This document shows, piece by piece, positions 28,236 to 63,795 of a stretch of 64,000 nt of DNA. Made by a program: the position numbers and the translations under genes. The notes beneath the pieces were generated by a model. It searched no databases, had not been told where the DNA came from, and saw only the letters and a program-made list of their open reading frames with translations. Each line of letters begins with the position of its first letter. The first letter of the stretch is position 1. Location: the NCBI GenBank assembly GCA_951812995.1, contig CATOTD010000002.1:627468-691467 (forward strand), given 5' to 3'. The stretch comes from an uncultured Gammaproteobacteria bacterium. GTDB taxonomy: Bacteria; Pseudomonadota; Gammaproteobacteria; Eutrophobiales; Eutrophobiaceae.

Positions 28236-28281
28236 TTATGTTTTATCAATGGATCGAATATCTGTATTATTTCCGATGACT

Positions 28282-28560
28282 ATGATGACCTATCCTGATA
28301 TTAATCCTGTTGCCTTAGACCTTGGGTTTTTGAAAGTGCATTGGTATGGCATCAGCTATCTTGTTGGGATTTTAGGCGCGTGGTGGTTATTACGCTTGCG
28401 GGGTCGGCAGGCGCAATGGGATTATAGTGCTGAGCAAGTGTCTGATCTCATTTTTTATACTATATTGGGGATAATCGTCGTCGGCCGACTCGGATCTATT
28501 ATGTTCTATAATTTGCCTTATTATCTTCACGGAACCTCTATTAATGCAATCACTTTCCAG
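28282..28560 (+). pseudogene. lgt: Prolipoprotein diacylglyceryl transferase, truncated
   Basis: It encodes the N-terminal ~93 residues of Lgt, the membrane enzyme that lipidates prolipoproteins: 'MTYPDINPVALDLGFLKVHW' followed by 'YGISYLVGILGAWWLLRLRG', then 'GIIVVGRLGSIMFYNLPYYL'. After about 28555 the sequence no longer matches. The catalytic HGGLxG and later Arg motifs are missing. It lies between an IS1595 element (ends 28235) and an IS5-2 remnant. Start choices are 28276, 28282 or 28285. An intact copy must exist elsewhere if the organism makes lipoproteins such as PilP. Confidence 0.78.
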
Positions 28561-28599
28561 TTTATTGGCTCAGAGAGGTTAAAACAATAACCAATTTGA

Positions 28600-37418: not shown

Positions 37419-40400
37419 CTACCATTGTAGACGCAAATCAATTTCAATACTGTTGTTGGCGGGCTTATCTTTTTGTGCATGATGACCCCCTACAATACCC
37501 CAGTCTATGCCTGTCTTATGTTGCCAACGGGCACCGAAGCGATAATTCCGCTCGCTACCGGTAAATTGCATTTTCGTATATGGTGTCAGTAGCGCACGGC
37601 CATTCATGGTGGCTAGACCATAGCCAAGCGTCATCTGGTGATTCAGTTGGTAGTCTTGTTTCTGTACCTGATTATCAATCACCGGATTAACGGGTGATGC
37701 GGCAATATCGTCTACTAACAGGGTGTTTTCGGTATCGCCGTATGCGCTTTGCATCTCCAACGACAACCCTAATCTATTGCGCGCCTGCAGTGTCAACAAA
37801 CCGCTAACGCCCCATTCCTCCAGGCCGCTGCTATGTGTTAGCAGACGTCGCCATTGTAGTTTAGTGCGACTGCCCGTTACAGCATCGTTGTAACGCATTC
37901 CAATAACCATCTCGCTGCCGTGTCCGGTTTGTCCGTCACCTGAATCATCACGCAACCCAAACTCCAACGATGGCATCAACGTATTACCGTTATAAAGCAT
38001 GAACGTATGCTTAGCTTCCAATGACAATCGCGTCTGGTAGGTAACGTACGTTAAACCCTCGATGAGTTCTTCCCGATAGCCATGCACATCAAACTGGTTG
38101 ACCGATGTCTGTAGCTTTACTCGCAGGCTGTCTGAGGGGTTGTCAGACTGGGACAGCAATTCCATATCACCCCCGATAGAAAACTGCACCAAGCGACTAT
38201 CGCTGTTGCGTTTTTTCCCTGATTCTGTGACGGTTATCTCACCCTCACCATAGCCGCCAATCATCCATAGATGGCTGTTGTTTGCCATCTTCCAATTAAC
38301 ATAAGGATGAATACTGGTTAGTGTGCTTTCGTAATCACCCGCTTGGTTCATATCGCCATTTGTATCCATGTAGTCTATTGTAGCCTTGCTCCAGTTCAGA
38401 CTCGCACCCAATAACAAACCATTGTCATGGCGCTTGTCAATGCCGATAATCGCGCTGACAATCTCGCCATCCCACTGTACGTCATCACGCTTGGTGTTGC
38501 TAAGCTGTTCATAAGCACCGTTGCCCCATAACGATACGTCATGCGATATATCGTGGGCGGGTGTATCAGGATTACCCAGCTTGGCAAGCTCGGCCAATGA
38601 AATAGAAAAACCGCTGTTTAGCAACTGCTGTCGCCATGAAACAGTACCCTCTTGCAAGGCTTGCTGATTTGATTGCAACCAGGGCAAAAATGCGTTTTGG
38701 CCATTCAGATTCAGGCGCTGCGGTTGCGCCGATGACGCACTGATCTCATCCATGCGATTGAGTACAGCAGATTTCACCATCCCGGCCATTGCCTTAATCA
38801 TCTGCGGCGCGATGGCTTTATCAATCCGACTCATATCCCGCGTAGCCGTATCATCATCGATAACCTCAATCGCAATACGCTCACCAAACTGACCGTTATA
38901 ATCCCCATCGGTGCTGACCGCATTAGCTAAGCTGATATCAACTTGTTGGTCACCATCGGCCACATCATCGTCTTGACCGGTGACGGTCACTGACTGGGCC
39001 ACATGCCAGTTAGTATCAGTAAAGGTCAAGGTGGCAGGTAATACCGTTGCCTCCCCCGCATCACTGCTGCTAACAGCTATACTGACATTGGCATCTGGCT
39101 CAGACGTTAATACCACACTAAACGTGTCTTGTGTTCCTCTCTCACTGACTGTGGTATCCCCATCCGTCTGCAAGATGGTAATGCCTGGCGCGTCATTGTC
39201 TGTAACAGTAACCGTTATCGTTTGACCAAACTGACCGTTATAATCCCCATCGGTGCTAACCGCATTGGCTAAGCTGATATCAACTTGTTGGTCACCATCG
39301 GCCACATCATCGTCTTGACCGGTGACGGTCACTGACTGGGCCACATGCCAGTTACCTACAGTAAAGGTCAAGGTGGCAGGTAATACCGTTGCCTCCCCCG
39401 CATCACTGCTGCTAACAGCTATACTGACATTGGCATCTGGCTCAGACGTTAATACCACACTAAACGTGTCTTGTGTTCCTCTCTCACTGACTGTGGTATC
39501 CCCATCCGTCTGCAAGATGGTAATGCCTGGCGCGTCATTGTCTGTAACAGTAACCGTTATCGTTTGACCAAACTGACCGTTATAATCCCCATCGGTGCTA
39601 ACCGCATTGGCTAAGCTGATATCAACTTGTTGGTCACCATCGGCCACATCATCGTCTTGACCGGTGACGGTCACTGACTGGGCCACATGCCAGTTAGTAT
39701 CAGTAAAGGTCAAGGTGGCAGGTAATACCGTTGCCTCCCCCGCATCACTACTGCTAATACCAATCACGACATCAGCGGTTGGTTGACTGCTCAAGAGCAC
39801 GGTAAATGTGTCTTGTGTTCCGGTCTCACTGACTGTGGTATCCCCATCCGTCTGCAAGATGGTAATGCCTGGCGCGTCATTGTCTGTAACAGTAACCGTT
39901 ATCGTTTGACCAAACTGACCGTTATAATCCCCATCGGTGCTAACCGCATTGGCTAAGCTGATATCAACTTGTTGGTCACCATCGGCCACATCATCGTCTT
40001 GACCGGTGACGGTCACTGACTGGGCCACATGCCAGTTAGTATCAGTAAAGGTCAAGGTGGCAGGTAATACCGTTGCCTCCCCCGCATCACTGCTGCTAAC
40101 AGCTATACTGACATTGGCATCTGGCTCAGACGTTAATACCACACTAAACGTGTCTTGTGTTCCTCTCTCACTGACTGTGGTATCCCCATCCGTCTGCAAG
40201 ATGGTAATGCCTGGCGCGTCATTGTCTGTAACAGTAACCGTTATCGTTTGACCAAACTGACCGTTATAATCCCCATCGGTGCTAACCGCATTGGCTAAGC
40301 TGATATCAACTTGTTGGTCACCATCGGCCACATCATCGTCTTGACCGGTGACGGTCACTGACTGGGCCACATGCCAGTTAGTATCAGTAAAGGTCAAGGT

Positions 40401-43400
40401 GGCAGGTAATACCGTTGCCTCCCCCGCATCACTACTGCTAACAGCTATACTGACATTGGCATCTGGCTCAGACGTTAATACCACACTAAATGTGTCTTGT
40501 GTTCCGGTCTCACTGACTGTGGTATCCCCATCCGTCTGCAAGATGGTAATGCCTGGCGCGTCATTGTCTGTAACAGTAACCGTTATCGTTTGACCAAACT
40601 GACCGTTATAATCCCCATCGGTGCTAACCGCATTGGCTAAGCTGATATCAACTTGTTGGTCACCATCGGCCACATCATCGTCTTGACCGGTGACGGTCAC
40701 TGACTGGGCCACATGCCAGTTACCTACAGTAAAGGTCAAGGTGGCAGGTAATACCGTTGCCTCCCCCGCATCACTGCTGCTAACAGCTATACTGACATTG
40801 GCATCTGGCTCAGACGTTAATACCACACTAAACGTGTCTTGTGTTCCTCTCTCACTGACTGTGGTATCCCCATCCGTCTGCAAGATGGTAATGCCTGGCG
40901 CGTCATTGTCTGTAACAGTAACCGTTATCGTTTGACCAAACTGACCGTTATAATCCCCATCGGTGCTAACCGCATTGGCTAAGCTGATATCAACTTGTTG
41001 GTCACCATCGGCCACATCATCGTCTTGACCGGTGACGGTCACTGACTGGGCCACATGCCAGTTAGTATCAGTAAAGGTCAAGGTGGCAGGTAATACCGTT
41101 GCCTCCCCCGCATCACTGCTGCTAACAGCTATACTGACATTGGCATCTGGCTCAGACGTTAATACCACACTAAACGTGTCTTGTGTTCCTCTCTCACTGA
41201 CTGTGGTATCCCCATCCGTCTGCAAGATGGTAATGCCTGGCGCGTCATTGTCTGTAACAGTAACCGTTATCGTTTGACCAAACTGACCGTTATAATCCCC
41301 ATCGGTGCTAACCGCATTGGCTAAGCTGATATCAACTTGTTGGTCACCATCGGCCACATCATCGTCTTGACCGGTGACGGTCACTGACTGGGCCACATGC
41401 CAGTTAGTATCAGTAAAGGTCAAGGTGGCAGGTAATACCGTTGCCTCCCCCGCATCACTACTGCTAACAGCTATACTGACATTGGCATCTGGCTCAGACG
41501 TTAATACCACACTAAACGTGTCTTGTGTCCCGGTCTCACTGACTGTGGTATCCCCATCCGTCTGCAAGACGGTAATGCCTGGCGCGTCATTGTCTGTAAC
41601 AGTAACCGTTATCGTTTGACCAAACTGACCGTTATAATCCCCATCGGTGCTAACCGCATTGGCTAAGCTGATATCAACTTGTTGGTCACCATCGGCCACA
41701 TCATCGTCTTGACCGGTGACGGTCACTGACTGGGCCACATGCCAGTTACCTACAGTAAAGGTCAAGGTGGCAGGTAATACCGTTGCCTCCCCCGCATCAC
41801 TGCTGCTAATACCAATCACGACATCAGCGGTTGGTTGACTACCCAATACCACTGTATAGTCTCCAGTGCTACCCTCATCAACCGTCAGTAATGCCCTTGA
41901 TAGCCTGATGCCTGTATTGTCATCATCGGCAACACTGACATCAACATGGCTGCTAAACTTGCCCCCGTAATCCCCATCCGTACTAACCGCATTGGCTAAA
42001 TTGATCTCTATCGCTTGCACTCCATCTGCAATATCATCATTAACACCAGTCACGGTGATAGTCTGTGGCCTATCCCAGTTGGTATCGGTAAAGGTCAAGG
42101 TGGCAGGTAATACCGTTGCCTCCCCCGCATCACTACTGCTAATACCAATCACGACATCAGCGGTTGGTTGACTGCTCAAGAGCACGGTAAATGTGTCTTG
42201 TGTCCCGGTCTCGCTGACTGTGGTATCCCCATCCGTCTGCAAGATGGTAATGCCTGGCGCGTCATTGTCTGTAACAGTAACCGTTATCGTTTGACCAAAC
42301 TGACCGTTATAATCCCCATCGGTGCTAACCGCATTGGCTAAGCTGATATCAACTTGTTGGTCACCATCGGCCACATCATCGTCTTGACCGGTGACGGTCA
42401 CTGACTGGGCCACATGCCAGTTAGTATCAGTAAAGGTCAAGGTGGCAGGTAATACCGTTGCCTCCCCCGCATCACTGCTGCTAATACCAATCACGACATC
42501 AGCGGTTGGTTGACTGCTCAAGAGCACGGTAAATGTGTCTTGTGTTCCGGTCTCACTGACTGTGGTATCCCCATCCGTCTGCAAGATGGTAATGCCTGGC
42601 GCGTCATTGTCTGTAACAGTAACCGTTATCGTTTGACCAAACTGACCGTTATAATCCCCATCGGTGCTAACCGCATTGGCTAAGCTGATATCAACTTGTT
42701 GGTCACCATCGGCCACATCATCGTCTTGACCGGTGACGGTCACTGACTGGGCCACATGCCAGTTAGTATCAGTAAAGGTCAAGGTGGCAGGTAATACCGT
42801 TGCCTCCCCCGCATCACTGCTGCTAACAGCTATACTGACATTGGCATCTGGCTCAGACGTTAATACCACACTAAACGTGTCTTGTGTCCCGGTCTCACTG
42901 ACTGTGGTATCCCCATCCGTCTGCAAGATGGTAATGCCTGGCGCGTCATTGTCTGTAACAGTAACCGTTATCGTTTGACCAAACTGACCGTTATAATCCC
43001 CATCGGTGCTAACCGCATTGGCTAAGCTGATATCAACTTGTTGGTCACCATCGGCCACATCATCGTCTTGACCGGTGACGGTCACTGACTGGGCCACATG
43101 CCAGTTACCTACAGTAAAGGTCAAGGTGGCAGGTAATACCGTTGCCTCCCCCGCATCACTGCTGCTAACAGCTATACTGACATTGGCATCTGGCTCAGAC
43201 GTTAATACCACACTAAACGTGTCTTGTGTTCCTCTCTCACTGACTGTGGTATCCCCATCCGTCTGCAAGATGGTAATGCCTGGCGCGTCATTGTCTGTAA
43301 CAGTAACCGTTATCGTTTGACCAAACTGACCGTTATAATCCCCATCGGTGCTGACCGCATTAGCTAAGCTGATATCAACTTGTTGGTCACCATCGGCCAC

Positions 43401-46400
43401 ATCATCGTCTTGACCGGTGACGGTCACTGACTGGGCCACATGCCAGTTAGTATCAGTAAAGGTCAAGGTGGCAGGTAATACCGTTGCCTCCCCCGCATCA
43501 CTGCTGCTAACAGCTATACTGACATTGGCATCTGGCTCAGACGTTAATACCACACTAAACGTGTCTTGTGTTCCTCTCTCACTGACTGTGGTATCCCCAT
43601 CCGTCTGCAAGATGGTAATGCCTGGCGCGTCATTGTCTGTAACAGTAACCGTTATCGTTTGACCAAACTGACCGTTATAATCCCCATCGGTGCTAACCGC
43701 ATTGGCTAAGCTGATATCAACTTGTTGGTCACCATCGGCCACATCATCGTCTTGACCGGTGACGGTCACTGACTGGGCCACATGCCAGTTACCTACAGTA
43801 AAGGTCAAGGTGGCAGGTAATACCGTTGCCTCCCCCGCATCACTGCTGCTAACAGCTATACTGACATTGGCATCTGGCTCAGACGTTAATACCACACTAA
43901 ACGTGTCTTGTGTTCCTCTCTCACTGACTGTGGTATCCCCATCCGTCTGCAAGATGGTAATGCCTGGCGCGTCATTGTCTGTAACAGTAACCGTTATCGT
44001 TTGACCAAACTGACCGTTATAATCCCCATCGGTGCTAACCGCATTGGCTAAGCTGATATCAACTTGTTGGTCACCATCGGCCACATCATCGTCTTGACCG
44101 GTGACGGTCACTGACTGGGCCACATGCCAGTTAGTATCAGTAAAGGTCAAGGTGGCAGGTAATACCGTTGCCTCCCCCGCATCACTGCTGCTAACAGCTA
44201 TACTGACATTGGCATCTGGCTCAGACGTTAATACCACACTAAACGTGTCTTGTGTCCCGGTCTCACTGACTGTGGTATCCCCATCCGTCTGCAAGATGGT
44301 AATGCCTGGCGCGTCATTGTCTGTAACAGTAACCGTTATCGTTTGACCAAACTGACCGTTATAATCCCCATCGGTGCTAACCGCATTGGCTAAGCTGATA
44401 TCAACTTGTTGGTCACCATCGGCCACATCATCGTCTTGACCGGTGACGGTCACTGACTGGGCCACATGCCAGTTAGTATCAGTAAAGGTCAAGGTGGCAG
44501 GTAATACCGTTGCCTCCCCCGCATCACTGCTGCTAACAGCTATACTGACATTGGCATCTGGCTCAGACGTTAATACCACACTAAACGTGTCTTGTGTCCC
44601 GGTCTCACTGACTGTGGTATCCCCATCCGTCTGCAAGATGGTAATGCCTGGCGCGTCATTGTCTGTAACAGTAACCGTTATCGTTTGACCAAACTGACCG
44701 TTATAATCCCCATCGGTGCTAACCGCATTGGCTAAGCTGATATCAACTTGTTGGTCACCATCGGCCACATCATCGTCTTGACCGGTGACGGTCACTGACT
44801 GGGCCACATGCCAGTTACCTACAGTAAAGGTCAAGGTGGCAGGTAATACCGTTGCCTCCCCCGCATCACTGCTGCTAACAGCTATACTGACATTGGCATC
44901 TGGCTCAGACGTTAATACCACACTAAACGTGTCTTGTGTTCCTCTCTCACTGACTGTGGTATCCCCATCCGTCTGCAAGATGGTAATGCCTGGCGCGTCA
45001 TTGTCTGTAACAGTAACCGTTATCGTTTGACCAAACTGACCGTTATAATCCCCATCGGTGCTGACCGCATTAGCTAAGCTGATATCAACTTGTTGGTCAC
45101 CATCGGCCACATCATCGTCTTGACCGGTGACGGTCACTGACTGGGCCACATGCCAGTTAGTATCAGTAAAGGTCAAGGTGGCAGGTAATACCGTTGCCTC
45201 CCCCGCATCACTGCTGCTAACAGCTATACTGACATTGGCATCTGGCTCAGACGTTAATACCACACTAAACGTGTCTTGTGTTCCTCTCTCACTGACTGTG
45301 GTATCCCCATCCGTCTGCAAGATGGTAATGCCTGGCGCGTCATTGTCTGTAACAGTAACCGTTATCGTTTGACCAAACTGACCGTTATAATCCCCATCGG
45401 TGCTAACCGCATTGGCTAAGCTGATATCAACTTGTTGGTCACCATCGGCCACATCATCGTCTTGACCGGTGACGGTCACTGACTGGGCCACATGCCAGTT
45501 ACCTACAGTAAAGGTCAAGGTGGCAGGTAATACCGTTGCCTCCCCCGCATCACTGCTGCTAACAGCTATACTGACATTGGCATCTGGCTCAGACGTTAAT
45601 ACCACACTAAACGTGTCTTGTGTTCCTCTCTCACTGACTGTGGTATCCCCATCCGTCTGCAAGATGGTAATGCCTGGCGCGTCATTGTCTGTAACAGTAA
45701 CCGTTATCGTTTGACCAAACTGACCGTTATAATCCCCATCGGTGCTAACCGCATTGGCTAAGCTGATATCAACTTGTTGGTCACCATCGGCCACATCATC
45801 GTCTTGACCGGTGACGGTCACTGACTGGGCCACATGCCAGTTAGTATCAGTAAAGGTCAAGGTGGCAGGTAATACCGTTGCCTCCCCCGCATCACTGCTG
45901 CTAACAGCTATACTGACATTGGCATCTGGCTCAGACGTTAATACCACACTAAACGTGTCTTGTGTCCCGGTCTCACTGACTGTGGTATCCCCATCCGTCT
46001 GCAAGATGGTAATGCCTGGCGCGTCATTGTCTGTAACAGTAACCGTTATCGTTTGACCAAACTGACCGTTATAATCCCCATCGGTGCTAACCGCATTGGC
46101 TAAGCTGATATCAACTTGTTGGTCACCATCGGCCACATCATCGTCTTGACCGGTGACGGTCACTGACTGGGCCACATGCCAGTTAGTATCAGTAAAGGTC
46201 AAGGTGGCAGGTAATACCGTTGCCTCCCCCGCATCACTGCTGCTAACAGCTATACTGACATTGGCATCTGGCTCAGACGTTAATACCACACTAAACGTGT
46301 CTTGTGTCCCGGTCTCACTGACTGTGGTATCCCCATCCGTCTGCAAGATGGTAATGCCTGGCGCGTCATTGTCTGTAACAGTAACCGTTATCGTTTGACC

Positions 46401-52400: not shown

Positions 52401-55400
52401 AACAGCTATACTGACATTGGCATCTGGCTCAGACGTTAATACCACACTAAACGTGTCTTGTGTCCCGGTCTCACTGACTGTGGTATCCCCATCCGTCTGC
52501 AAGATGGTAATGCCTGGCGCGTCATTGTCTGTAACAGTAACCGTTATCGTTTGACCAAACTGACCGTTATAATCCCCATCGGTGCTAACCGCATTGGCTA
52601 AGCTGATATCAACTTGTTGGTCACCATCGGCCACATCATCGTCTTGACCGGTGACGGTCACTGACTGGGCCACATGCCAGTTACCTACAGTAAAGGTCAA
52701 GGTGGCAGGTAATACCGTTGCCTCCCCCGCATCACTGCTGCTAACAGCTATACTGACATTGGCATCTGGCTCAGACGTTAATACCACACTAAACGTGTCT
52801 TGTGTTCCTCTCTCACTGACTGTGGTATCCCCATCCGTCTGCAAGATGGTAATGCCTGGCGCGTCATTGTCTGTAACAGTAACCGTTATCGTTTGACCAA
52901 ACTGACCGTTATAATCCCCATCGGTGCTAACCGCATTGGCTAAGCTGATATCAACTTGTTGGTCACCATCGGCCACATCATCGTCTTGACCGGTGACGGT
53001 CACTGACTGGGCCACATGCCAGTTAGTATCAGTAAAGGTCAAGGTGGCAGGTAATACCGTTGCCTCCCCCGCATCACTACTGCTAATACCAATCACGACA
53101 TCAGCGGTTGGTTGACTGCTCAAGAGCACGGTAAATGTGTCTTGTGTTCCTCTCTCACTGACTGTGGTATCCCCATCCGTCTGCAAGATGGTAATGCCTG
53201 GCGCGTCATTGTCTGTAACAGTAACCGTTATCGTTTGACCAAACTGACCGTTATAATCCCCATCGGTGCTAACCGCATTGGCTAAGCTGATATCAACTTG
53301 TTGGTCACCATCGGCCACATCATCGTCTTGACCGGTGACGGTCACTGACTGGGCCACATGCCAGTTAGTATCAGTAAAGGTCAAGGTGGCAGGTAATACC
53401 GTTGCCTCCCCCGCATCACTACTGCTAACAGCTATACTGACATTGGCATCTGGCTCAGACGTTAATACCACACTAAATGTGTCTTGTGTTCCGGTCTCAC
53501 TGACTGTGGTATCCCCATCCGTCTGCAAGATGGTAATGCCTGGCGCGTCATTGTCTGTAACAGTAACCGTTATCGTTTGACCAAACTGACCGTTATAATC
53601 CCCATCGGTGCTAACCGCATTGGCTAAGCTGATATCAACTTGTTGGTCACCATCGGCCACATCATCGTCTTGACCGGTGACGGTCACTGACTGGGCCACA
53701 TGCCAGTTACCTACAGTAAAGGTCAAGGTGGCAGGTAATACCGTTGCCTCCCCCGCATCACTGCTGCTAACAGCTATACTGACATTGGCATCTGGCTCAG
53801 ACGTTAATACCACACTAAACGTGTCTTGTGTTCCTCTCTCACTGACTGTGGTATCCCCATCCGTCTGCAAGATGGTAATGCCTGGCGCGTCATTGTCTGT
53901 AACAGTAACCGTTATCGTTTGACCAAACTGACCGTTATAATCCCCATCGGTGCTAACCGCATTGGCTAAGCTGATATCAACTTGTTGGTCACCATCGGCC
54001 ACATCATCGTCTTGACCGGTGACGGTCACTGACTGGGCCACATGCCAGTTAGTATCAGTAAAGGTCAAGGTGGCAGGTAATACCGTTGCCTCCCCCGCAT
54101 CACTGCTGCTAACAGCTATACTGACATTGGCATCTGGCTCAGACGTTAATACCACACTAAACGTGTCTTGTGTTCCTCTCTCACTGACTGTGGTATCCCC
54201 ATCCGTCTGCAAGATGGTAATGCCTGGCGCGTCATTGTCTGTAACAGTAACCGTTATCGTTTGACCAAACTGACCGTTATAATCCCCATCGGTGCTAACC
54301 GCATTGGCTAAGCTGATATCAACTTGTTGGTCACCATCGGCCACATCATCGTCTTGACCGGTGACGGTCACTGACTGGGCCACATGCCAGTTAGTATCAG
54401 TAAAGGTCAAGGTGGCAGGTAATACCGTTGCCTCCCCCGCATCACTACTGCTAACAGCTATACTGACATTGGCATCTGGCTCAGACGTTAATACCACACT
54501 AAACGTGTCTTGTGTCCCGGTCTCACTGACTGTGGTATCCCCATCCGTCTGCAAGACGGTAATGCCTGGCGCGTCATTGTCTGTAACAGTAACCGTTATC
54601 GTTTGACCAAACTGACCGTTATAATCCCCATCGGTGCTAACCGCATTGGCTAAGCTGATATCAACTTGTTGGTCACCATCGGCCACATCATCGTCTTGAC
54701 CGGTGACGGTCACTGACTGGGCCACATGCCAGTTACCTACAGTAAAGGTCAAGGTGGCAGGTAATACCGTTGCCTCCCCCGCATCACTGCTGCTAATACC
54801 AATCACGACATCAGCGGTTGGTTGACTACCCAATACCACTGTATAGTCTCCAGTGCTACCCTCATCAACCGTCAGTAATGCCCTTGATAGCCTGATGCCT
54901 GTATTGTCATCATCGGCAACACTGACATCAACATGGCTGCTAAACTTGCCCCCGTAATCCCCATCCGTACTAACCGCATTGGCTAAATTGATCTCTATCG
55001 CTTGCACTCCATCTGCAATATCATCATTAACACCAGTCACGGTGATAGTCTGTGGCCTATCCCAGTTGGTATCGGTAAAGGTCAAGGTGGCAGGTAATAC
55101 CGTTGCCTCCCCCGCATCACTACTGCTAATACCAATCACGACATCAGCGGTTGGTTGACTGCTCAAGAGCACGGTAAATGTGTCTTGTGTCCCGGTCTCG
55201 CTGACTTGAGTATCCCCACCGGTCTCGGTGACATCAACCCCAGCCGTATCATCATCTGTAACATGTACACCAACATCGGCTATCAGTACCCCGTCATAAC
55301 CACCGCCTGTAGCACGATGGGTAATCGTGACATCTCGATGTGTGCCATTGTCCTTATCATCATTAACACCGGTCACGGTGATGGTTTGGGGCGTATCCCA

Positions 55401-58400
55401 GTTGGTATCGGTAAAGGTCAAGCTGGCGGGTGTGAGCGTTGCAATACCCGCATCCCCACTCGTTGGGGTAATCGTGACATCGCCTGTTGGCTGACTACCC
55501 AATACCACTGTATAGTCTCCAGTGCTACCCTCATCAACCCTCAGTGATGCGCTTGATAGCCTGATGCCTGTATTGTCATCATCGGCAACACTGACATCAA
55601 CATGGCTGCTAAACTTGCCCCCGTAATCCCCATCCGTACTAACCGCATTGGCTAAATTGATCTCTATCGCTTGCACTCCATCTGCAATATCATCATTAAC
55701 ACCGGTGACGGTTACGATCTGTGGCCTATCCCAGTTGGTATCGGTAAAGGTCAAGCTGGCAGGTCCTACCGTTGCCTCGCCTGTATCACTACTGCTAATA
55801 CCAATCACAACATCGGCATCTGGCTCAGACGTTAATACCACGCTAAACGTGTCTTGTGTCCCGGTCTCGCTGACTTGAGTATCCCCACCGGTCTCGGTGA
55901 CATCAACCCCAGCCGTATCATCATCTGTAACATGTACACCAACATCGGCTATCAGTACCCCGTCATAACCACCGCCTGTAGCACGATGGGTAATCGTGAC
56001 ATCTCGATGTGTGCCATTGTCCTTATCATCATTAACACCGGTCACGGTGATGGTTTGGGGCGTATCCCAGTTGGTATCGGTAAAGGTCAAGCTGGCGGGT
56101 GTGAGCGTTGCAATGTCCGCATCCCCACTCGTTGGGGTAATCGTGACATCGCCTGTTGGCTGACTACCCAATACCACTGTATAGTCTCCAGTGCTACCCT
56201 CATCAACCCTCAGTAATGCGTTTGATAGCCTGATGCCTGTATTGTCATCATCGGCAACACTGACATCAACATGGCTGCTAAACTTGCCCCCGTAATCAAC
56301 ATCCGTACTAACCGCATTGGCTAAATTGATCTCTATCGCTTGCACTCCATCTGCAATATCATCATTAATACCAGTCACGGTGATGGTCTGTGGCCTATCC
56401 CAGTTGGTATCGGTAAAGGTCAAAGTAGCAGGTCCTACCGTTGCCTCGCCTGTATCACTACTGCTAATACCAATCACAACATCGGCATCTGGCTCAGACG
56501 TTAATACCACACTAAATGTGTCTTGTGTCCCTCCCTCGCTGACTTGAGTATCCCCACCGGTCTCGGTGACATCAACCCCAGCCGTATCATCATCTGTAAC
56601 ATGCACATCAACATCGGCTATCAGTACCCCGTCATAACCACCGCCTGTAGCACGATGGGTAATCGTGACATCTCGATGTGTGCCATTGTCCTTATCATCA
56701 TTAACACCGGTCACGGTGATGGTTTGGGGCGTATCCCAGTTGGTATCGGTAAAGGTCAAGCTGGCGGGTGTGAGCGTTGCAATGTCCGCATCCCCACTTG
56801 TTGGGGTAATCGTGACATCGCCTGTTGGCTGACTACCCAATACCACTGTATAGTCTCCAGTGCTACCCTCATCAACCGTCAGTAATGCCCTTGATAGCCT
56901 GATGCCTGTATTGTCATCATCGGCAACACTGACATCAACATGGCTGCTAAACTTGCCCCCGTAATCAACATCCGTACTAACCGCATTGGCTAAATTGATC
57001 TCTATCGCTTGCACTCCATCGGCAATATCATCATTAACACCGGTCACGGTTACGATCTGTGGCCTATCCCAGTTGGTATCGGTAAAGGTCAAAGTAGCAG
57101 GTCCTACCGTTGCCTCGCCTGTATCACTACTGCTAATACCAATCACAACATCGGCATCTGGCTCAGACGTTAATACCACACTAAATGTGTCTTGTGTCCC
57201 TCCCTCGCTGACTTGAGTATCCCCACCGGTCTCGGTGACATCAACCCCAGCCGTATCATCATCTGTAACATGCACATCAACATCGGCTATCAGTACCCCG
57301 TCATAACCACCGCCAACAGCACGATGGGTAATCGTGACATCTCGATGTGTGCCATTGTCCTTATCATCATTAACACCGGTCACGGTGATGGTTTGGGGCG
57401 TATCCCAGTTGGTATCGGTAAAGGTCAAGCTGGCGGGTGTGAGCGTTGCAATACCCGCATCCCCACTCGTTGGGGTAATCGTGACATCGCCTGTTGGCTG
57501 ACTACCCAATACCACTGTATAGTCTCCAGTGCTACCCTCATCAACCCTCAGTGATGCGCTTGATAGCCTGATGCCTGTATTGTCATCATCGGCAACACTG
57601 ACATCAACATGGCTGCTAAACTTGCCCCCGTAATCCCCATCCGTACTAACCGCATTGGCTAAATTGATCTCTATCGCTTGCACTCCATCTGCAATATCAT
57701 CATTAACACCGGTGACGGTTACGATCTGTGGCCTATCCCAGTTGGTATCGGTAAAGGTCAAGCTGGCAGGTCCTACCGTTGCCTCGCCTGTATCACTACT
57801 GCTAATACCAATCACAACATCGGCATCTGGCTCAGACGTTAATACCACGCTAAACGTGTCTTGTGTCCCGGTCTCGCTGACTTGAGTATCCCCACCGGTC
57901 TCGGTGACATCAACCCCAGCCGTATCATCATCTGTAACATGTACATCAACATCGGCTATCAGTACCCCGTCATAACCACCGCCAACAGCACGATGGGTAA
58001 TCGTGACATCTCGATGTGTGCCATTGTCCTTATCATCATTAACACCGGTCACGGTGATGGTTTGGGGCGTATCCCAGTTGGTATCGGTAAAGGTCAAGCT
58101 GGCGGGTGTGAGCGTTGCAATGTCCGCATCCCCACTCGTTGGGGTAATCGTGACATCGCCTGTTGGCTGACTACCCAATACCACTGTATAGTCTCCAGTG
58201 CTACCCTCATCAACCCTCAGTAATGCGTTTGATAGCCTGATGCCTGTATTGTCATCATCGGCAACACTGACATCAACATGGCTGCTAAACTTGCCCCCGT
58301 AATCAACATCCGTACTAACCGCATTGGCTAAATTGATCTCTATCGCTTGCACTCCATCTGCAATATCATCATTAATACCAGTCACGGTGATGGTCTGTGG

Positions 58401-59087
58401 CCTATCCCAGTTGGTATCGGTAAAGGTCAAAGTAGCAGGTCCTACCGTTGCCTCGCCTGTATCACTACTGCTAATACCAATCACAACATCGGCATCTGGC
58501 TCAGACGTTAATACCACGCTAAACGTGTCTTGTGTCCCTCTCTCGCTGACTTGAGTATCCCCACCGGTCTCGGTGACATCAACCCCAGCCGTATCATCAT
58601 CTGTAACATGCACATCAACATCGGCTATCAGTACCCCGTCATAACCACCGCCTGTAGCACGATGGGTAATCGTGACATCTCGATGTGTGCCATTGTCCTT
58701 ATCATCATTAACACCGGTCACGGTGATGGTTTGGGGCGTATCCCAGTTGGTATCGGTAAAGGTCAAGCTGGCGGGTGTGAGCGTTGCAATACCCGCATCC
58801 CCACTCGTTGGGGTAATCGTGACATCGCCTGTTGGCTGACTACCCAATACCACTGTATAGTCTCCAGTGCTACCCTCATCAATCGTCAAGGCATCGGTTG
58901 ATATATTGACGCTTGGCACGAAAGGCGTACCTGTAACCTCGGCCGAGACTGGCCCATTCACCCCATTAACATCAACCGCTCGCAGTTTTAAGGTGTATGG
59001 CGTATTGTTGTTTAAGCCAGTCAGTACATAGCTATTTGCATTAACCCCCTCTGGGTGGCTATTATAATTCGCTGCCATTTTTTCCAT
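37419..59087 (-). CDS. Giant repetitive surface protein: Calx-beta-like repeats and autotransporter barrel (main frame)
   Basis: The open frame covers 7,222 codons from 59087, but the real N-terminus lies upstream in another frame (59021-60181); joined, about 7,587 residues. In order: the second half of a fibronectin-III-like domain ('YVLTGLNNNTPYTLKLRAVD'), six 223-residue double repeats, 46 repeats of 114 residues with Calx-beta-type Asp-rich ends ('VTVTDNDAP', 'QDDDVADGDQQ'), a linker, and from about 'SLWGNGAYEQL' a ~340-residue outer-membrane beta-barrel ending 'DLRLQW' before TAG. The barrel predicts outer-membrane insertion and surface display of the repeats, perhaps as a calcium-dependent adhesin. 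Passengers of this fold are unusual for classical autotransporters. Function is inferred from architecture only. Confidence 0.85.
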   Translation of the reverse strand: MEKMAANYNSHPEGVNANSYVLTGLNNNTPYTLKLRAVDVNGVNGPVSAEVTGTPFVPSVNISTDALTIDEGSTGDYTVVLGSQPTGDVTITPTSGDAGIATLTPASLTFTDTNWDTPQTITVTGVNDDKDNGTHRDVTITHRATGGGYDGVLIADVDVHVTDDDTAGVDVTETGGDTQVSERGTQDTFSVVLTSEPDADVVIGISSSDTGEATVGPATLTFTDTNWDRPQTITVTGINDDIADGVQAIEINLANAVSTDVDYGGKFSSHVDVSVADDDNTGIRLSNALLRVDEGSTGDYTVVLGSQPTGDVTITPTSGDADIATLTPASLTFTDTNWDTPQTITVTGVNDDKDNGTHRDVTITHRAVGGGYDGVLIADVDVHVTDDDTAGVDVTETGGDTQVSETGTQDTFSVVLTSEPDADVVIGISSSDTGEATVGPASLTFTDTNWDRPQIVTVTGVNDDIADGVQAIEINLANAVSTDGDYGGKFSSHVDVSVADDDNTGIRLSSASLRVDEGSTGDYTVVLGSQPTGDVTITPTSGDAGIATLTPASLTFTDTNWDTPQTITVTGVNDDKDNGTHRDVTITHRAVGGGYDGVLIADVDVHVTDDDTAGVDVTETGGDTQVSEGGTQDTFSVVLTSEPDADVVIGISSSDTGEATVGPATLTFTDTNWDRPQIVTVTGVNDDIADGVQAIEINLANAVSTDVDYGGKFSSHVDVSVADDDNTGIRLSRALLTVDEGSTGDYTVVLGSQPTGDVTITPTSGDADIATLTPASLTFTDTNWDTPQTITVTGVNDDKDNGTHRDVTITHRATGGGYDGVLIADVDVHVTDDDTAGVDVTETGGDTQVSEGGTQDTFSVVLTSEPDADVVIGISSSDTGEATVGPATLTFTDTNWDRPQTITVTGINDDIADGVQAIEINLANAVSTDVDYGGKFSSHVDVSVADDDNTGIRLSNALLRVDEGSTGDYTVVLGSQPTGDVTITPTSGDADIATLTPASLTFTDTNWDTPQTITVTGVNDDKDNGTHRDVTITHRATGGGYDGVLIADVGVHVTDDDTAGVDVTETGGDTQVSETGTQDTFSVVLTSEPDADVVIGISSSDTGEATVGPASLTFTDTNWDRPQIVTVTGVNDDIADGVQAIEINLANAVSTDGDYGGKFSSHVDVSVADDDNTGIRLSSASLRVDEGSTGDYTVVLGSQPTGDVTITPTSGDAGIATLTPASLTFTDTNWDTPQTITVTGVNDDKDNGTHRDVTITHRATGGGYDGVLIADVGVHVTDDDTAGVDVTETGGDTQVSETGTQDTFTVLLSSQPTADVVIGISSSDAGEATVLPATLTFTDTNWDRPQTITVTGVNDDIADGVQAIEINLANAVSTDGDYGGKFSSHVDVSVADDDNTGIRLSRALLTVDEGSTGDYTVVLGSQPTADVVIGISSSDAGEATVLPATLTFTVGNWHVAQSVTVTGQDDDVADGDQQVDISLANAVSTDGDYNGQFGQTITVTVTDNDAPGITVLQTDGDTTVSETGTQDTFSVVLTSEPDANVSIAVSSSDAGEATVLPATLTFTDTNWHVAQSVTVTGQDDDVADGDQQVDISLANAVSTDGDYNGQFGQTITVTVTDNDAPGITILQTDGDTTVSERGTQDTFSVVLTSEPDANVSIAVSSSDAGEATVLPATLTFTDTNWHVAQSVTVTGQDDDVADGDQQVDISLANAVSTDGDYNGQFGQTITVTVTDNDAPGITILQTDGDTTVSERGTQDTFSVVLTSEPDANVSIAVSSSDAGEATVLPATLTFTVGNWHVAQSVTVTGQDDDVADGDQQVDISLANAVSTDGDYNGQFGQTITVTVTDNDAPGITILQTDGDTTVSETGTQDTFSVVLTSEPDANVSIAVSSSDAGEATVLPATLTFTDTNWHVAQSVTVTGQDDDVADGDQQVDISLANAVSTDGDYNGQFGQTITVTVTDNDAPGITILQTDGDTTVSERGTQDTFTVLLSSQPTADVVIGISSSDAGEATVLPATLTFTDTNWHVAQSVTVTGQDDDVADGDQQVDISLANAVSTDGDYNGQFGQTITVTVTDNDAPGITILQTDGDTTVSERGTQDTFSVVLTSEPDANVSIAVSSSDAGEATVLPATLTFTVGNWHVAQSVTVTGQDDDVADGDQQVDISLANAVSTDGDYNGQFGQTITVTVTDNDAPGITILQTDGDTTVSETGTQDTFSVVLTSEPDANVSIAVSSSDAGEATVLPATLTFTDTNWHVAQSVTVTGQDDDVADGDQQVDISLANAVSTDGDYNGQFGQTITVTVTDNDAPGITILQTDGDTTVSERGTQDTFSVVLTSEPDANVSIAVSNSDAGEATVLPATLTFTVGNWHVAQSVTVTGQDDDVADGDQQVDISLANAVSTDGDYNGQFGQTITVTVTDNDAPGITILQTDGDTTVSETGTQDTFTVLLSSQPTADVVIGISSSDAGEATVLPATLTFTDTNWHVAQSVTVTGQDDDVADGDQQVDISLANAVSTDGDYNGQFGQTITVTVTDNDAPGITILQTDGDTTVSERGTQDTFSVVLTSEPDANVSIAVSSSDAGEATVLPATLTFTVGNWHVAQSVTVTGQDDDVADGDQQVDISLANAVSTDGDYNGQFGQTITVTVTDNDAPGITILQTDGDTTVSETGTQDTFTVLLSSQPTADVVIGISSSDAGEATVLPATLTFTDTNWHVAQSVTVTGQDDDVADGDQQVDISLANAVSTDGDYNGQFGQTITVTVTDNDAPGITILQTDGDTTVSETGTQDTFSVVLTSEPDANVSIAVSSSDAGEATVLPATLTFTVGNWHVAQSVTVTGQDDDVADGDQQVDISLANAVSTDGDYNGQFGQTITVTVTDNDAPGITILQTDGDTTVSETGTQDTFTVLLSSQPTADVVIGISSSDAGEATVLPATLTFTDTNWHVAQSVTVTGQDDDVADGDQQVDISLANAVSTDGDYNGQFGQTITVTVTDNDAPGITILQTDGDTTVSERGTQDTFSVVLTSEPDANVSIAVSSSDAGEATVLPATLTFTVGNWHVAQSVTVTGQDDDVADGDQQVDISLANAVSTDGDYNGQFGQTITVTVTDNDAPGITVLQTDGDTTVSETGTQDTFTVLLSSQPTADVVIGISSSDAGEATVLPATLTFTDTNWHVAQSVTVTGQDDDVADGDQQVDISLANAVSTDGDYNGQFGQTITVTVTDNDAPGITILQTDGDTTVSERGTQDTFSVVLTSEPDANVSIAVSSSDAGEATVLPATLTFTDTNWHVAQSVTVTGQDDDVADGDQQVDISLANAVSTDGDYNGQFGQTITVTVTDNDAPGITILQTDGDTTVSERGTQDTFSVVLTSEPDANVSIAVSSSDAGEATVLPATLTFTVGNWHVAQSVTVTGQDDDVADGDQQVDISLANAVSTDGDYNGQFGQTITVTVTDNDAPGITILQTDGDTTVSETGTQDTFTVLLSSQPTADVVIGISSSDAGEATVLPATLTFTDTNWHVAQSVTVTGQDDDVADGDQQVDISLANAVSTDGDYNGQFGQTITVTVTDNDAPGITILQTDGDTTVSERGTQDTFSVVLTSEPDANVSIAVSSSDAGEATVLPATLTFTVGNWHVAQSVTVTGQDDDVADGDQQVDISLANAVSTDGDYNGQFGQTITVTVTDNDAPGITILQTDGDTTVSETGTQDTFSVVLTSEPDANVSIAVSSSDAGEATVLPATLTFTVGNWHVAQSVTVTGQDDDVADGDQQVDISLANAVSTDGDYNGQFGQTITVTVTDNDAPGITILQTDGDTTVSERGTQDTFSVVLTSEPDANVSIAVSSSDAGEATVLPATLTFTVGNWHVAQSVTVTGQDDDVADGDQQVDISLANAVSTDGDYNGQFGQTITVTVTDNDAPGITILQTDGDTTVSETGTQDTFTVLLSSQPTADVVIGISSSDAGEATVLPATLTFTDTNWHVAQSVTVTGQDDDVADGDQQVDISLANAVSTDGDYNGQFGQTITVTVTDNDAPGITILQTDGDTTVSERGTQDTFSVVLTSEPDANVSIAVSSSDAGEATVLPATLTFTVGNWHVAQSVTVTGQDDDVADGDQQVDISLANAVSTDGDYNGQFGQTITVTVTDNDAPGITILQTDGDTTVSETGTQDTFTVLLSSQPTADVVIGISSSDAGEATVLPATLTFTDTNWHVAQSVTVTGQDDDVADGDQQVDISLANAVSTDGDYNGQFGQTITVTVTDNDAPGITILQTDGDTTVSETGTQDTFSVVLTSEPDANVSIAVSSSDAGEATVLPATLTFTDTNWHVAQSVTVTGQDDDVADGDQQVDISLANAVSTDGDYNGQFGQTITVTVTDNDAPGITILQTDGDTTVSETGTQDTFSVVLTSEPDANVSIAVSSSDAGEATVLPATLTFTDTNWHVAQSVTVTGQDDDVADGDQQVDISLANAVSTDGDYNGQFGQTITVTVTDNDAPGITILQTDGDTTVSERGTQDTFSVVLTSEPDANVSIAVSSSDAGEATVLPATLTFTVGNWHVAQSVTVTGQDDDVADGDQQVDISLANAVSTDGDYNGQFGQTITVTVTDNDAPGITILQTDGDTTVSERGTQDTFSVVLTSEPDANVSIAVSSSDAGEATVLPATLTFTDTNWHVAQSVTVTGQDDDVADGDQQVDISLANAVSTDGDYNGQFGQTITVTVTDNDAPGITILQTDGDTTVSERGTQDTFSVVLTSEPDANVSIAVSSSDAGEATVLPATLTFTVGNWHVAQSVTVTGQDDDVADGDQQVDISLANAVSTDGDYNGQFGQTITVTVTDNDAPGITILQTDGDTTVSETGTQDTFSVVLTSEPDANVSIAVSSSDAGEATVLPATLTFTDTNWHVAQSVTVTGQDDDVADGDQQVDISLANAVSTDGDYNGQFGQTITVTVTDNDAPGITILQTDGDTTVSETGTQDTFSVVLTSEPDANVSIAVSSSDAGEATVLPATLTFTDTNWHVAQSVTVTGQDDDVADGDQQVDISLANAVSTDGDYNGQFGQTITVTVTDNDAPGITILQTDGDTTVSERGTQDTFSVVLTSEPDANVSIAVSSSDAGEATVLPATLTFTVGNWHVAQSVTVTGQDDDVADGDQQVDISLANAVSTDGDYNGQFGQTITVTVTDNDAPGITILQTDGDTTVSERGTQDTFSVVLTSEPDANVSIAVSSSDAGEATVLPATLTFTDTNWHVAQSVTVTGQDDDVADGDQQVDISLANAVSTDGDYNGQFGQTITVTVTDNDAPGITILQTDGDTTVSERGTQDTFSVVLTSEPDANVSIAVSSSDAGEATVLPATLTFTVGNWHVAQSVTVTGQDDDVADGDQQVDISLANAVSTDGDYNGQFGQTITVTVTDNDAPGITILQTDGDTTVSETGTQDTFSVVLTSEPDANVSIAVSSSDAGEATVLPATLTFTDTNWHVAQSVTVTGQDDDVADGDQQVDISLANAVSTDGDYNGQFGQTITVTVTDNDAPGITILQTDGDTTVSETGTQDTFTVLLSSQPTADVVIGISSSDAGEATVLPATLTFTDTNWHVAQSVTVTGQDDDVADGDQQVDISLANAVSTDGDYNGQFGQTITVTVTDNDAPGITILQTDGDTTVSETGTQDTFTVLLSSQPTADVVIGISSSDAGEATVLPATLTFTDTNWDRPQTITVTGVNDDIADGVQAIEINLANAVSTDGDYGGKFSSHVDVSVADDDNTGIRLSRALLTVDEGSTGDYTVVLGSQPTADVVIGISSSDAGEATVLPATLTFTVGNWHVAQSVTVTGQDDDVADGDQQVDISLANAVSTDGDYNGQFGQTITVTVTDNDAPGITVLQTDGDTTVSETGTQDTFSVVLTSEPDANVSIAVSSSDAGEATVLPATLTFTDTNWHVAQSVTVTGQDDDVADGDQQVDISLANAVSTDGDYNGQFGQTITVTVTDNDAPGITILQTDGDTTVSERGTQDTFSVVLTSEPDANVSIAVSSSDAGEATVLPATLTFTDTNWHVAQSVTVTGQDDDVADGDQQVDISLANAVSTDGDYNGQFGQTITVTVTDNDAPGITILQTDGDTTVSERGTQDTFSVVLTSEPDANVSIAVSSSDAGEATVLPATLTFTVGNWHVAQSVTVTGQDDDVADGDQQVDISLANAVSTDGDYNGQFGQTITVTVTDNDAPGITILQTDGDTTVSETGTQDTFSVVLTSEPDANVSIAVSSSDAGEATVLPATLTFTDTNWHVAQSVTVTGQDDDVADGDQQVDISLANAVSTDGDYNGQFGQTITVTVTDNDAPGITILQTDGDTTVSERGTQDTFSVVLTSEPDANVSIAVSSSDAGEATVLPATLTFTDTNWHVAQSVTVTGQDDDVADGDQQVDISLANAVSTDGDYNGQFGQTITVTVTDNDAPGITILQTDGDTTVSETGTQDTFTVLLSSQPTADVVIGISSSDAGEATVLPATLTFTDTNWHVAQSVTVTGQDDDVADGDQQVDISLANAVSTDGDYNGQFGQTITVTVTDNDAPGITILQTDGDTTVSERGTQDTFSVVLTSEPDANVSIAVSSSDAGEATVLPATLTFTVGNWHVAQSVTVTGQDDDVADGDQQVDISLANAVSTDGDYNGQFGQTITVTVTDNDAPGITILQTDGDTTVSERGTQDTFSVVLTSEPDANVSIAVSSSDAGEATVLPATLTFTDTNWHVAQSVTVTGQDDDVADGDQQVDISLANAVSTDGDYNGQFGERIAIEVIDDDTATRDMSRIDKAIAPQMIKAMAGMVKSAVLNRMDEISASSAQPQRLNLNGQNAFLPWLQSNQQALQEGTVSWRQQLLNSGFSISLAELAKLGNPDTPAHDISHDVSLWGNGAYEQLSNTKRDDVQWDGEIVSAIIGIDKRHDNGLLLGASLNWSKATIDYMDTNGDMNQAGDYESTLTSIHPYVNWKMANNSHLWMIGGYGEGEITVTESGKKRNSDSRLVQFSIGGDMELLSQSDNPSDSLRVKLQTSVNQFDVHGYREELIEGLTYVTYQTRLSLEAKHTFMLYNGNTLMPSLEFGLRDDSGDGQTGHGSEMVIGMRYNDAVTGSRTKLQWRRLLTHSSGLEEWGVSGLLTLQARNRLGLSLEMQSAYGDTENTLLVDDIAASPVNPVIDNQVQKQDYQLNHQMTLGYGLATMNGRALLTPYTKMQFTGSERNYRFGARWQHKTGIDWGIVGGHHAQKDKPANNSIEIDLRLQW
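38870..54790 (-). repeat. 342-bp (114-residue) tandem repeat array, 46 units
   Basis: The landmark 'NWHVAQSVTVTGQ' recurs at exact 342-bp spacing: 9 units from 38980 to 41716 and 37 units from 42391 to 54703, interrupted by one 333-bp hybrid unit near 41790-42130. Units are almost identical at DNA level and differ mainly at three cassette positions: SERG or SETG; 'SVVLTSEPDANVSIAV' or 'TVLLSSQPTADVVIGI'; DTNW or VGNW. Confidence 0.93.
54790..58880 (-). repeat. 669-bp (223-residue) double-repeat array, six units
   Basis: Each unit pairs a module starting 'VDEGSTGDYTVVLGSQPTGD' with one starting 'GVDVTETGGDTQVSE'. Spacing is exactly 669 bp. The variants at the unit start, NALL, SASL and RALL, recur in the same order twice, so three units (2,007 bp) form a higher-order period. 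The last unit grades into the 342-bp array through a hybrid module. Confidence 0.92.
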
Positions 59088-60181
59088 TTTCCTTTCGATG
59101 GCAAAAATTGCTTATATTCATACCAGGCGATTTTTTCATGTTTTGTATGGGCCACAGGCGACCAAGATAACGTCAGTTGCTTATCGCCTGGCAATAGCGT
59201 TAATACGGGTTGCCCCGGCTTGCCCTTGGTACTCGTATCCCCTAAGGGACCTCCATCGAGAATACTCCAGGTATATTGATCGGTTAATATAGTGCGTGCT
59301 GCTTCACCCGCTGTGCTGTATTTGACGGTACCAACACCCAATGTCACGCTTTTTTTGACAGCCAGTTTTGACCAAGCATTAAGCAGTCTATCGTAATGGG
59401 CTGTCGTCAATGCTGTATTGACAAGCATCTGATCCATACTGCTAACCTGACTAATATCCCAGCGGCTAATGTCTTGGTTAAACGAGCTTGCGCCATGGAA
59501 CATGTGATCCATATTGCTTACCCGGCTGACATTCCAACTGCCAATATCCTGGTTAAACGATGTGGCGCCATCAAACATAGCCTCCATGTTGGTAACAGCA
59601 CCCACGTTCCAAGTACCGATGTTGCCATTGAAAGCGGTCGCAACATAGAACATATAACTCATATTGCTTACCTGGCTGACATTCCAATGACCGATATTGC
59701 CATTAAAGGCACGAGCATTATCAAACATATAGCTCATATCACTAACATTGCTGAGATTGGGGGCATCGGTGGCATTGAGCGTTACTTGATTGCAATTACG
59801 GAAAGCATCACGCATAGAGCGCCAGGCCTGGCTGCCCCATTGCTCAATGCTCCGGAGCTTTTGCCGATTGCCGAGGGTGTTATCACAAGCGATAATTCGT
59901 GGGAAATCGCCGCTAATTTTTACGGTATACGTGCCAGCTACTGTATAAGTGTGGCTACGGGGGCCTGTTAGGTTGCTATCAGAATTACCATCGCCCCAAT
60001 CGATCTGATAGTTATAGTTATATCCCCCTCTGGTAGGAATAACAATTTGCTCCCCCGCATTGACCTGCCAAGTGGTAATAAAGGCAGTTGCATCCTGGGC
60101 TTTTGTAGCCGGAGCAAACAACAGACCCTGCAATACAATTACAAATGCTATTAGTCGGATAAAAAACTGCATTTTGTTCAA
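59021..60181 (-). CDS. Giant surface protein, N-terminal part (separate frame)
   Basis: It starts at ATG 60181 with a signal peptide ('IRLIAFVIVLQGLLFAPATKA', cleavage likely after AKA-type 'TKA'). Next comes a PKD-like segment ('YQIDWGDGNSDSN', 'HTYTVAGTYTVKI'), then four to five BspA/DUF285 leucine-rich-like repeats ('NMSYMFYVATAFNGNIGTWN', 'NMDHMFHGASSFNQDISRWD'), then the first half of a fibronectin-III-like domain ('KPGQPVLTLLPGDKQLTLSW'). The true sequence continues in the main frame after 'KGKWKK'. The 22 residues past that point to TGA (59021) are out-of-frame tail. It is divergent from hypF, with 266 bp between them. Confidence 0.85.
   Translation of the reverse strand: MNKMQFFIRLIAFVIVLQGLLFAPATKAQDATAFITTWQVNAGEQIVIPTRGGYNYNYQIDWGDGNSDSNLTGPRSHTYTVAGTYTVKISGDFPRIIACDNTLGNRQKLRSIEQWGSQAWRSMRDAFRNCNQVTLNATDAPNLSNVSDMSYMFDNARAFNGNIGHWNVSQVSNMSYMFYVATAFNGNIGTWNVGAVTNMEAMFDGATSFNQDIGSWNVSRVSNMDHMFHGASSFNQDISRWDISQVSSMDQMLVNTALTTAHYDRLLNAWSKLAVKKSVTLGVGTVKYSTAGEAARTILTDQYTWSILDGGPLGDTSTKGKPGQPVLTLLPGDKQLTLSWSPVAHTKHEKIAWYEYKQFLPSKGKWKKWQRIIIATQRGLMQIAMY
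59078..59083 (-). other. A6 homopolymer at the frameshift of the giant gene
   Basis: Six A residues on the coding strand (T on the plus strand). Adding one A would make the N-terminal frame run directly into the main frame (Trp-Lys-Lys-Met-Ala-Ala-Asn-Tyr) and complete the fibronectin-III-like domain. It may be a replication-slippage on/off switch, a recent mutation or a base-calling error. Confidence 0.75.
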
Positions 60182-60447: not shown

Positions 60448-60782
60448 TTGAGCGTCAACACAAAAGATACACATACCCGAGTCAATGCAACCATTCGCAT
60501 TCGAGGGATAGTGCAAGGTGTTGGTTTTCGTCCAACCATTTGGCGTATAGCGAATGAATGCGATCTCGTTGGTGAAGTGCTTAATGACACAAACGGCGTA
60601 CTTATACATGTATCTGGCTATTTACAATCTGTCGATCAATTTGTGCAACGTTTACATGCTGAAGCACCGCCATTAGCGCGCATCGACGCAATTGAACGTA
60701 CATCACACAACAAAGACTTAAAAGGCAATCAATTTCGGATAGGGGCCAGTGATTCAGGCAATGCGCTAACTGGCATAGCGCC
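60448..60782 (+). pseudogene. hypF: HypF, truncated after the acylphosphatase domain
   Basis: TTG start at 60448 after GTGAGGT. It encodes the N-terminal acylphosphatase domain of the [NiFe]-hydrogenase maturation carbamoyltransferase: 'IRIRGIVQGVGFRPTIWRIA' and 'GEVLNDTNGVLIHVSGYLQS'. After about 111 residues the IS256-3 terminal repeat begins (60783). The zinc-finger, YrdC-like and Kae1-like domains (over 600 residues) are missing from the window. HypF makes the cyanide ligands of hydrogenases, so this copy is non-functional. Confidence 0.85.
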
Positions 60783-63673: not shown

Positions 63674-63795
63674 AGTTTCTGATAGGATATGGATCGTTTG
63701 TTGCGGCACAACATGAGCTTTATTCTGACTTTACTATCACTGTCGCAGAAGCACTAATTCACTATGTGTACCACACTTAACGAGGGAGAGTAGGC
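63674..63795 (+). other. Short region upstream of the thiolase gene
   Basis: 122 bp between the IS5-1 end and the thiolase ATG. A frame ends at TAA 63778-63780 and may be the tail of a lost upstream gene, but nothing in it is recognisable. The ribosome-binding site GAGGGAGAG (63782-63790) belongs to the thiolase gene. Confidence 0.4.

Follow-up and report, generated by a model that had tools for sequence, protein, structure and literature searches.

The window analysed here, a stretch of 64,000 nucleotides (64 kb) from contig CATOTD010000002.1 of an uncultured Gammaproteobacteria bacterium (G000:C2:627468-691467), raises the question whether the minus-strand coding region that fills positions 37419-60181 (22,763 bases, about 7,590 codons) encodes one giant surface protein and, if so, of which kind. 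We conclude that the locus probably encodes, over two overlapping frames, a giant fibrillar adhesin in which a predicted outer-membrane barrel would anchor 59 predicted Calx-beta-like units forming the shaft, with DUF285 as the distal tip. The name adhesin rests on this architecture, as it does for fibrillar adhesins generally, which are defined in PMC8286594 with a count of 1-73 stalk domains.

The initial annotation had described the region as a single 22.8-kb gene. Its extent was correct, but its length is not divisible by three and a single-frame reading gives 405 stops; coding is spread over two minus-strand open reading frames (ORFs) in different frames (Table 1). ORF 1 and ORF 2 are read as halves of one ancestral gene, with the parts following each other in the order tip, fibronectin-III-like domain (fn3), 59 units, helix region and barrel match. 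The frame changes within the fn3-like domain. Its second half matched Pfam fn3 over profile positions 44-83 of 84 with an E value of 0.0011, under the cut-off, and its first half was assigned to ORF 1 by inspection. The segment annotated as fibronectin-III-like is thus present, but broken across two frames and covered by Pfam in its second half only. The database gene call P0001 comprises 7,219 amino acids and lacks the tip and the signal peptide. The best reading of the locus is a gene for a giant barrel-anchored fibrillar adhesin that would operate in the manner of an autotransporter and is at present frame-split by mutation or sequence error.

Table 1. Features of the giant fibre locus, listed in the direction of coding.
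Feature	Position in window	Strand	Details and basis
ORF 1	59021..60181	-	386 codons; TTG start, with an ATG three codons further on; encodes signal peptide, PKD-like segment, DUF285 tip, first half of fn3
Apparent Sec signal peptide MQFFIRLIAFVIVLQGLLFAPATKA	60098..60172	-	Inspection only
PKD-like segment	59897..60067	-	Limits by inspection; Pfam stretch is ORF 1 residues 52-89
DUF285 / PARCEL (BspA-like leucine-rich) tip	59396..59854	-	PF03382, TIGR02167; 75-bp DNA period (TRF)
Fibronectin-III-like domain	58908..59218	-	Divided between ORF 1 (first half) and ORF 2 (second half)
ORF 1/ORF 2 overlap	59021..59087	-	67 bases; frame change within the fn3-like domain
ORF 2	37419..59087	-	7,222 codons without stop; second half of fn3, 59 repeat units, helix, barrel
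Six repeats of 223 residues, each made of two units (112 + 111)	54894..58907	-	Repeat analysis
114-residue units (46) and a single 111-residue unit	38829..54893	-	Repeat analysis, TRF
Extra 111-residue unit, second copy of the junction between repeat types	41907..42239	-	Shares 2,070 identical bases with the first junction
Linker helix ahead of barrel	38736..38825	-	Model residues 2-31
Outer-membrane beta-barrel, predicted 18 strands, final residue Trp	37422..38537	-	Structure model

The BspA/DUF285 repeats proposed for the N-terminal part were confirmed by matches far above the cut-offs (PF03382: E 2.6e-56, 189 bits versus 25; TIGR02167 (PARCEL): E 3.4e-17, 61.8 bits versus 30), and within the source genome DUF285 was found at this locus only. 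The annotated signal peptide is apparent on inspection of ORF 1. For the PKD-like segment, a Pfam match was obtained (PF00801, E 2.6e-4), although its 21.4 bits remained slightly below the cut-off of 23.5.

Repeat analysis of ORF 2 revealed a shaft of 59 beta-sandwich-like units, namely 12 in six pairs, 46 of the 114-residue type and one more. The six 223-residue and 46 114-residue repeats counted initially were found exactly, but the single 111-residue unit had been missed. The 46 units of 114 residues fall into 14 different sequences at the DNA level and 10 at the protein level, assembled from a few alternative blocks, with a mean pairwise DNA identity of 94.8% and a minimum of 71%, and the longest exact repeat in the array spans 2,271 bases. 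Near-identical units, long exact repeats and the duplicated junction point to a recent growth of the shaft through unequal recombination. Such highly identical tandem repeats in one chain are a trait of Periscope Proteins, the folding of each unit being predicted here by a model only.

The predicted unit fold is a beta-sandwich resembling the Ca2+-binding Calx-beta domains of NCX1 and CALX, which supports a putative Calx-beta-like nature of the shaft units. This assignment, made already in the initial annotation, rests on the fold only because sequence searches with PF03160 (Calx-beta) were not significant. No match to this profile was obtained in the stretches of the window that were scanned or in a six-frame search of the source genome; 14 control genomes were equally silent, so that the latter result is no proof of absence. 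A profile search of solved structures for a Calx-beta kinship of the units gave a best, non-significant E value of 0.72, and a sequence search for solved relatives of the shaft units returned none. PF03160 does match the relative P0002 (61 bits) and three of the 21 rows of alignment A4 (E up to 0.01). Acidic motifs occur in 59 of 59 units, which is suggestive only as to Ca2+ binding.

At the C-terminus, the predicted barrel ending in Trp was substantiated by a match of the last ~370 residues to the autotransporter beta-domain PF03797 (E 1.2e-10, 42 bits versus a cut-off of 26), which covers profile positions 1-209 of 255 only. One AlphaFold2 model of the C-terminal region, a check proposed in the initial annotation, showed an N-terminal helix followed by a barrel of 18 strands rather than 12. 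Aligned barrel rows spanning helix to stop measured 446-474 residues; an NCBIfam scan of the barrel gave no match for the window row and TIGR01414 in 6 of 42 rows. Neither a sequence search nor a barrel-profile search identified solved relatives of the barrel.

The initial annotation had considered the combination of BspA tip, Calx-beta shaft and barrel possibly undescribed and had proposed to look for it in other genomes. A protein search with the barrel yielded 37 giants of 4,040-7,964 amino acids including the window's own, 20 of which contain the unit profile. Together with 120 listed of 395 giants from a second search, 157 were examined: the barrel was present in 49 of them, the tip in 121, and the two together in 13. 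Since these 13 other giants (P0013, P0040, P0041, P0044, P0049, P0050, P0053, P0057, P0069, P0076, P0114, P0126 and P0136) combine a DUF285 tip with the barrel, this pairing recurs and is not unique to the window. They share with the window protein DUF285/PKD-type tip units and a C-terminal barrel of the same family in one protein; in contrast, their tip unit is mostly repeated many times, and a long array of 114-residue units is missing from all of them (P0053 has a single such unit). Among the proteins examined, the window locus was the only case in which such a shaft was seen together with a DUF285 tip. In all 40 giants listed of the 49 barrel carriers, the barrel lies at most 63 residues from the C-terminus.

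The barrel family is rare and patchily distributed. It was detected in 10 of 369 genomes of the class sample at E 1e-20 and in 3 of 58 related genomes, the source genome included in both counts, and in none of 11 genus-mates. Two weaker copies are present elsewhere in the source genome, which comprises 3.05 Mb in 17 contigs and whose taxonomic family includes G025 (OY282354.1, uncultured Gammaproteobacteria). A second barrel protein of the source genome (L002, G000:C2:122142-126500) has an open frame of 1,410 codons, a barrel 32% identical to that of the window and a passenger which appears FN3-like and Calx-like on inspection. A search on plasmids gave no match and a single-sequence scan of genome contigs with the barrel found nothing, whereas an alignment scan of named genomes returned at least 595 pattern stretches, at least 167 of them encoding a relative. 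We retained 80 of these 167 loci, all in records titled metagenome-assembled genome (MAG). At least two carriers are sponge symbionts, Porisulfidus TsSOB (record title) and feldmannii 277cV (PMC6506613), and the sample codes of the others appear to be those of sponge sets.

A tree of 42 barrel rows, built by a quick method with phyla taken from MAG labels (10 rows carry none), contains seven phyla, and further record titles name Nitrospinota. The phyla are interleaved, with 11 label changes where the least possible is 6 and shuffled labels gave a mean of 12.7; of 200 shuffles, 5 reached a value this low. Horizontal transfer between phyla is nevertheless not proven by these sequences because the window row forms a long branch joining another long branch, paralogues are many and bins may contain foreign contigs.

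Long frames ending in this barrel are not confined to the window. For 20 of the 80 loci, picked for variety, a search of the respective genome gave 109 barrel matches in total, including fragments. Of these, 29 lie in open frames of 5,000 codons or more, spread over 10 of the 20 genomes, and 20 lie in frames longer than the 7,230 codons of the window. The maximum, 21,139 codons in OY282354.1 (G025:C1:738387-801803, L102-L105), was read directly; this frame is free of stops, ends in the same barrel and shows Calx-beta-type repeats on inspection, but is not matched by the unit profile of the window shaft. The same record holds eleven more barrel matches, one of them a fragment, in frames of up to 15,554 codons.

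Classical type Va autotransporters such as EspP, NalP, EstA and AIDA-I resemble the window protein in the C-terminal PF03797 domain, the pre-barrel helix, the terminal aromatic residue and the N-terminal passenger. The barrel of these proteins has 12 strands, in contrast to the 18 predicted here. Moreover, the window passenger exceeds 7,000 residues and consists of modelled beta-sandwich units instead of the usual, though not strictly defining, beta-helix. A helix preceding and entering the barrel is predicted, but the barrel polypeptide carries no signal peptide; the signal-like N-terminus lies in ORF 1 and the barrel in ORF 2. Inverse autotransporters (intimin/invasin), mentioned among sponge symbionts in a passage of PMC10947273, have an N-terminal barrel and a C-terminal passenger, whereas the window barrel is C-terminal.

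Periscope Proteins, as defined in the relevant part of PMC9704523, are likewise single chains of individually folding, near-identical tandem repeats forming a rod; most Gram-negative examples given there belong to the inverse autotransporters, which have a barrel of their own, and ShdA and CdrA are named as well. Calx-beta and LapA/BapP-type Ca2+ adhesins (PMC7616799, PMC12153261) share with the window protein tandem beta-sandwich domains, DxD-type linkers and a presumed stiffening by Ca2+; LapA, however, is described there as anchored through an N-terminal part and as having RTX domains at its C-terminus, where the window protein has a barrel. The sponge symbiont Ca. Synechococcus feldmannii was reported to possess mixed FN3/cadherin/autotransporter proteins (PMC6506613) which, like the window protein, join a repeat-domain passenger to an autotransporter domain, and the barrels L020 and L021, titled Aphanocapsa feldmannii 277cV, belong to the window barrel family. 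The passage of PMC6506613 on these proteins mentions no DUF285 tip, and barrel-carrying frames in that genome (G058) reach 3,543 codons. Calx-beta domains (PF03160) are enriched across several bacterial phyla of Ircinia sponge microbiomes, in a passage of PMC9531527 that does not name their carriers; giant barrel-anchored fibres are one candidate. In the parts seen of the literature searched, subscription papers excepted, neither a DUF285-tipped or Calx-beta-shafted giant autotransporter nor an autotransporter barrel of 18 strands was described.

The surroundings of the gene are rich in mobile elements. Seven ORFs with transposase matches were found in the 64 kb (13169-13900, 21880-22521, 29064-30221, 30652-31515, 33139-33864, 34384-35370 and 62437-63780), and two ORFs (9460-10185 and 20676-21401) share the 241-codon length of that at 33139-33864, being known by length alone. 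Transposons appear to be spreading in the source genome at present. A fragment of a prolipoprotein diacylglyceryl transferase (lgt) gene (28249-28590, PF01790 positions 1-73 of 240) lies close to a transposase; elsewhere in the genome, lgt is matched over its full length (G000:C14:34179-34913). Just upstream of the giant gene, a truncated acylphosphatase domain (60448-60834, PF00708), HypF-like by inspection, adjoins an apparent decayed Mutator-type transposase, also recognised by inspection. A type I secretion pair is located 11 kb from the giant gene (22932-26401); it consists of an ABC transporter, whose N-terminus is weakly C39-like, and then a HlyD-type adaptor. Searches of the window for tRNAs and Rfam families found none, promoter-like sites upstream (5 versus 3.3 in shuffles, standard deviation 1.8) were not above chance, and no terminator-like site was found.

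The broken frame weighs against an intact fibrillar adhesin. As deposited, the tip would be made as a fragment without anchor and the shaft would lack a signal, unless the break is a sequence error. The rivals concerning the break are compatible with the architecture and bear on the break only; we rate an error and a real mutation as about equally likely and a switch as less so. An error, with one intact frame in the cell and a base-level artefact in the record, is quite conceivable, if short of an even chance. The 67-base overlap contains a short homopolymer run, a usual place for such errors, and exact repeats of 2,271 bases strain any assembly, so that the copy number of the array is possibly wrong as well. 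On the other hand, the 21.7-kb ORF has no further frame break and the 14 non-transposon window genes scanned that have a Pfam match show no sign of one and cover most or all of a profile (the two fragments not counted), which argues against a generally poor base quality.

Somewhat unlikely, but credible because the neighbourhood is full of transposases, is real decay, in which a once-working adhesin was killed by a frameshift amid transposon spread and gene loss. The position of the break within fn3, the two transposase genes flanking the locus (34384-35370 and 62437-63780), the lgt-like and acylphosphatase fragments near transposase sequence and the lack of the barrel in all 11 genus-mates searched are in line with it. 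Any inactivation would be recent, however, because the 7,222 codons downstream of the break are stop-free and the 14 scanned genes match over most or all of a profile.

It appears improbable that the barrel is a porin-like anchor only, the passenger leaving the cell by another route. The 18 modelled strands would fit such an anchor, and in structure comparison (VIA) the larger barrels LamB, Opd, VDAC, FhaC and BamA align to the last strands of the model whereas the listed autotransporters end at model residues 331-392. Yet autotransporter translocators score highest, most of them aligning with the helix from model residue 1, and the PF03797 match and the near-terminal barrel of the listed giants speak for autotransport. 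Least probable is an on/off switch or recoding, by which slippage at the overlap would allow a minority of cells or transcripts to make the long protein. Phase variation is common among surface repeat proteins and a short homopolymer lies within the overlap, but this run is short for a phase-variable tract, and no second strain was found, P0001 having one member.

For the giant fibrillar adhesin, the families involved suggest the following route. The full-length product would cross the inner membrane by means of its signal peptide (Sec), and the barrel would insert in the outer membrane. The passenger would then leave with its C-terminal end leading, either through the barrel or beside it, and its units would fold outside the cell and be stiffened by Ca2+. 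As Calx-beta-like units are about 4-5 nm long, 59 of them would hold the tip approximately 0.2-0.3 micrometre off the cell, where DUF285 may bind host or neighbour surfaces, and recombination between identical repeats could alter the shaft length.

To our knowledge, the manner in which eukaryotic-like domains are displayed to the sponge host is mostly open. Sponge microbiomes are rich in such domains, among them FN3, LRR, cadherin and Calx-beta, as passages of PMC9531527 and PMC6506613 report. We tentatively propose, at somewhat less than even confidence, that the barrel family represents a branch of its own within type V secretion. Its autotransporters would use 18-strand barrels to export giant Ig/Calx-beta fibres, up to ~21,000 residues long, and to anchor them, the eukaryote-like tips (DUF285, PKD, FN3, LRR) being exchangeable; they would form a common fibre toolkit across phyla of marine sponge symbionts for life in the same host. 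The family would offer a concrete answer to the question of display, namely eukaryotic-like domains carried on giant fibres with predicted outer-membrane anchoring, and its very long single-chain fibres and larger predicted barrel may provide material for probing the limits of autotransport.
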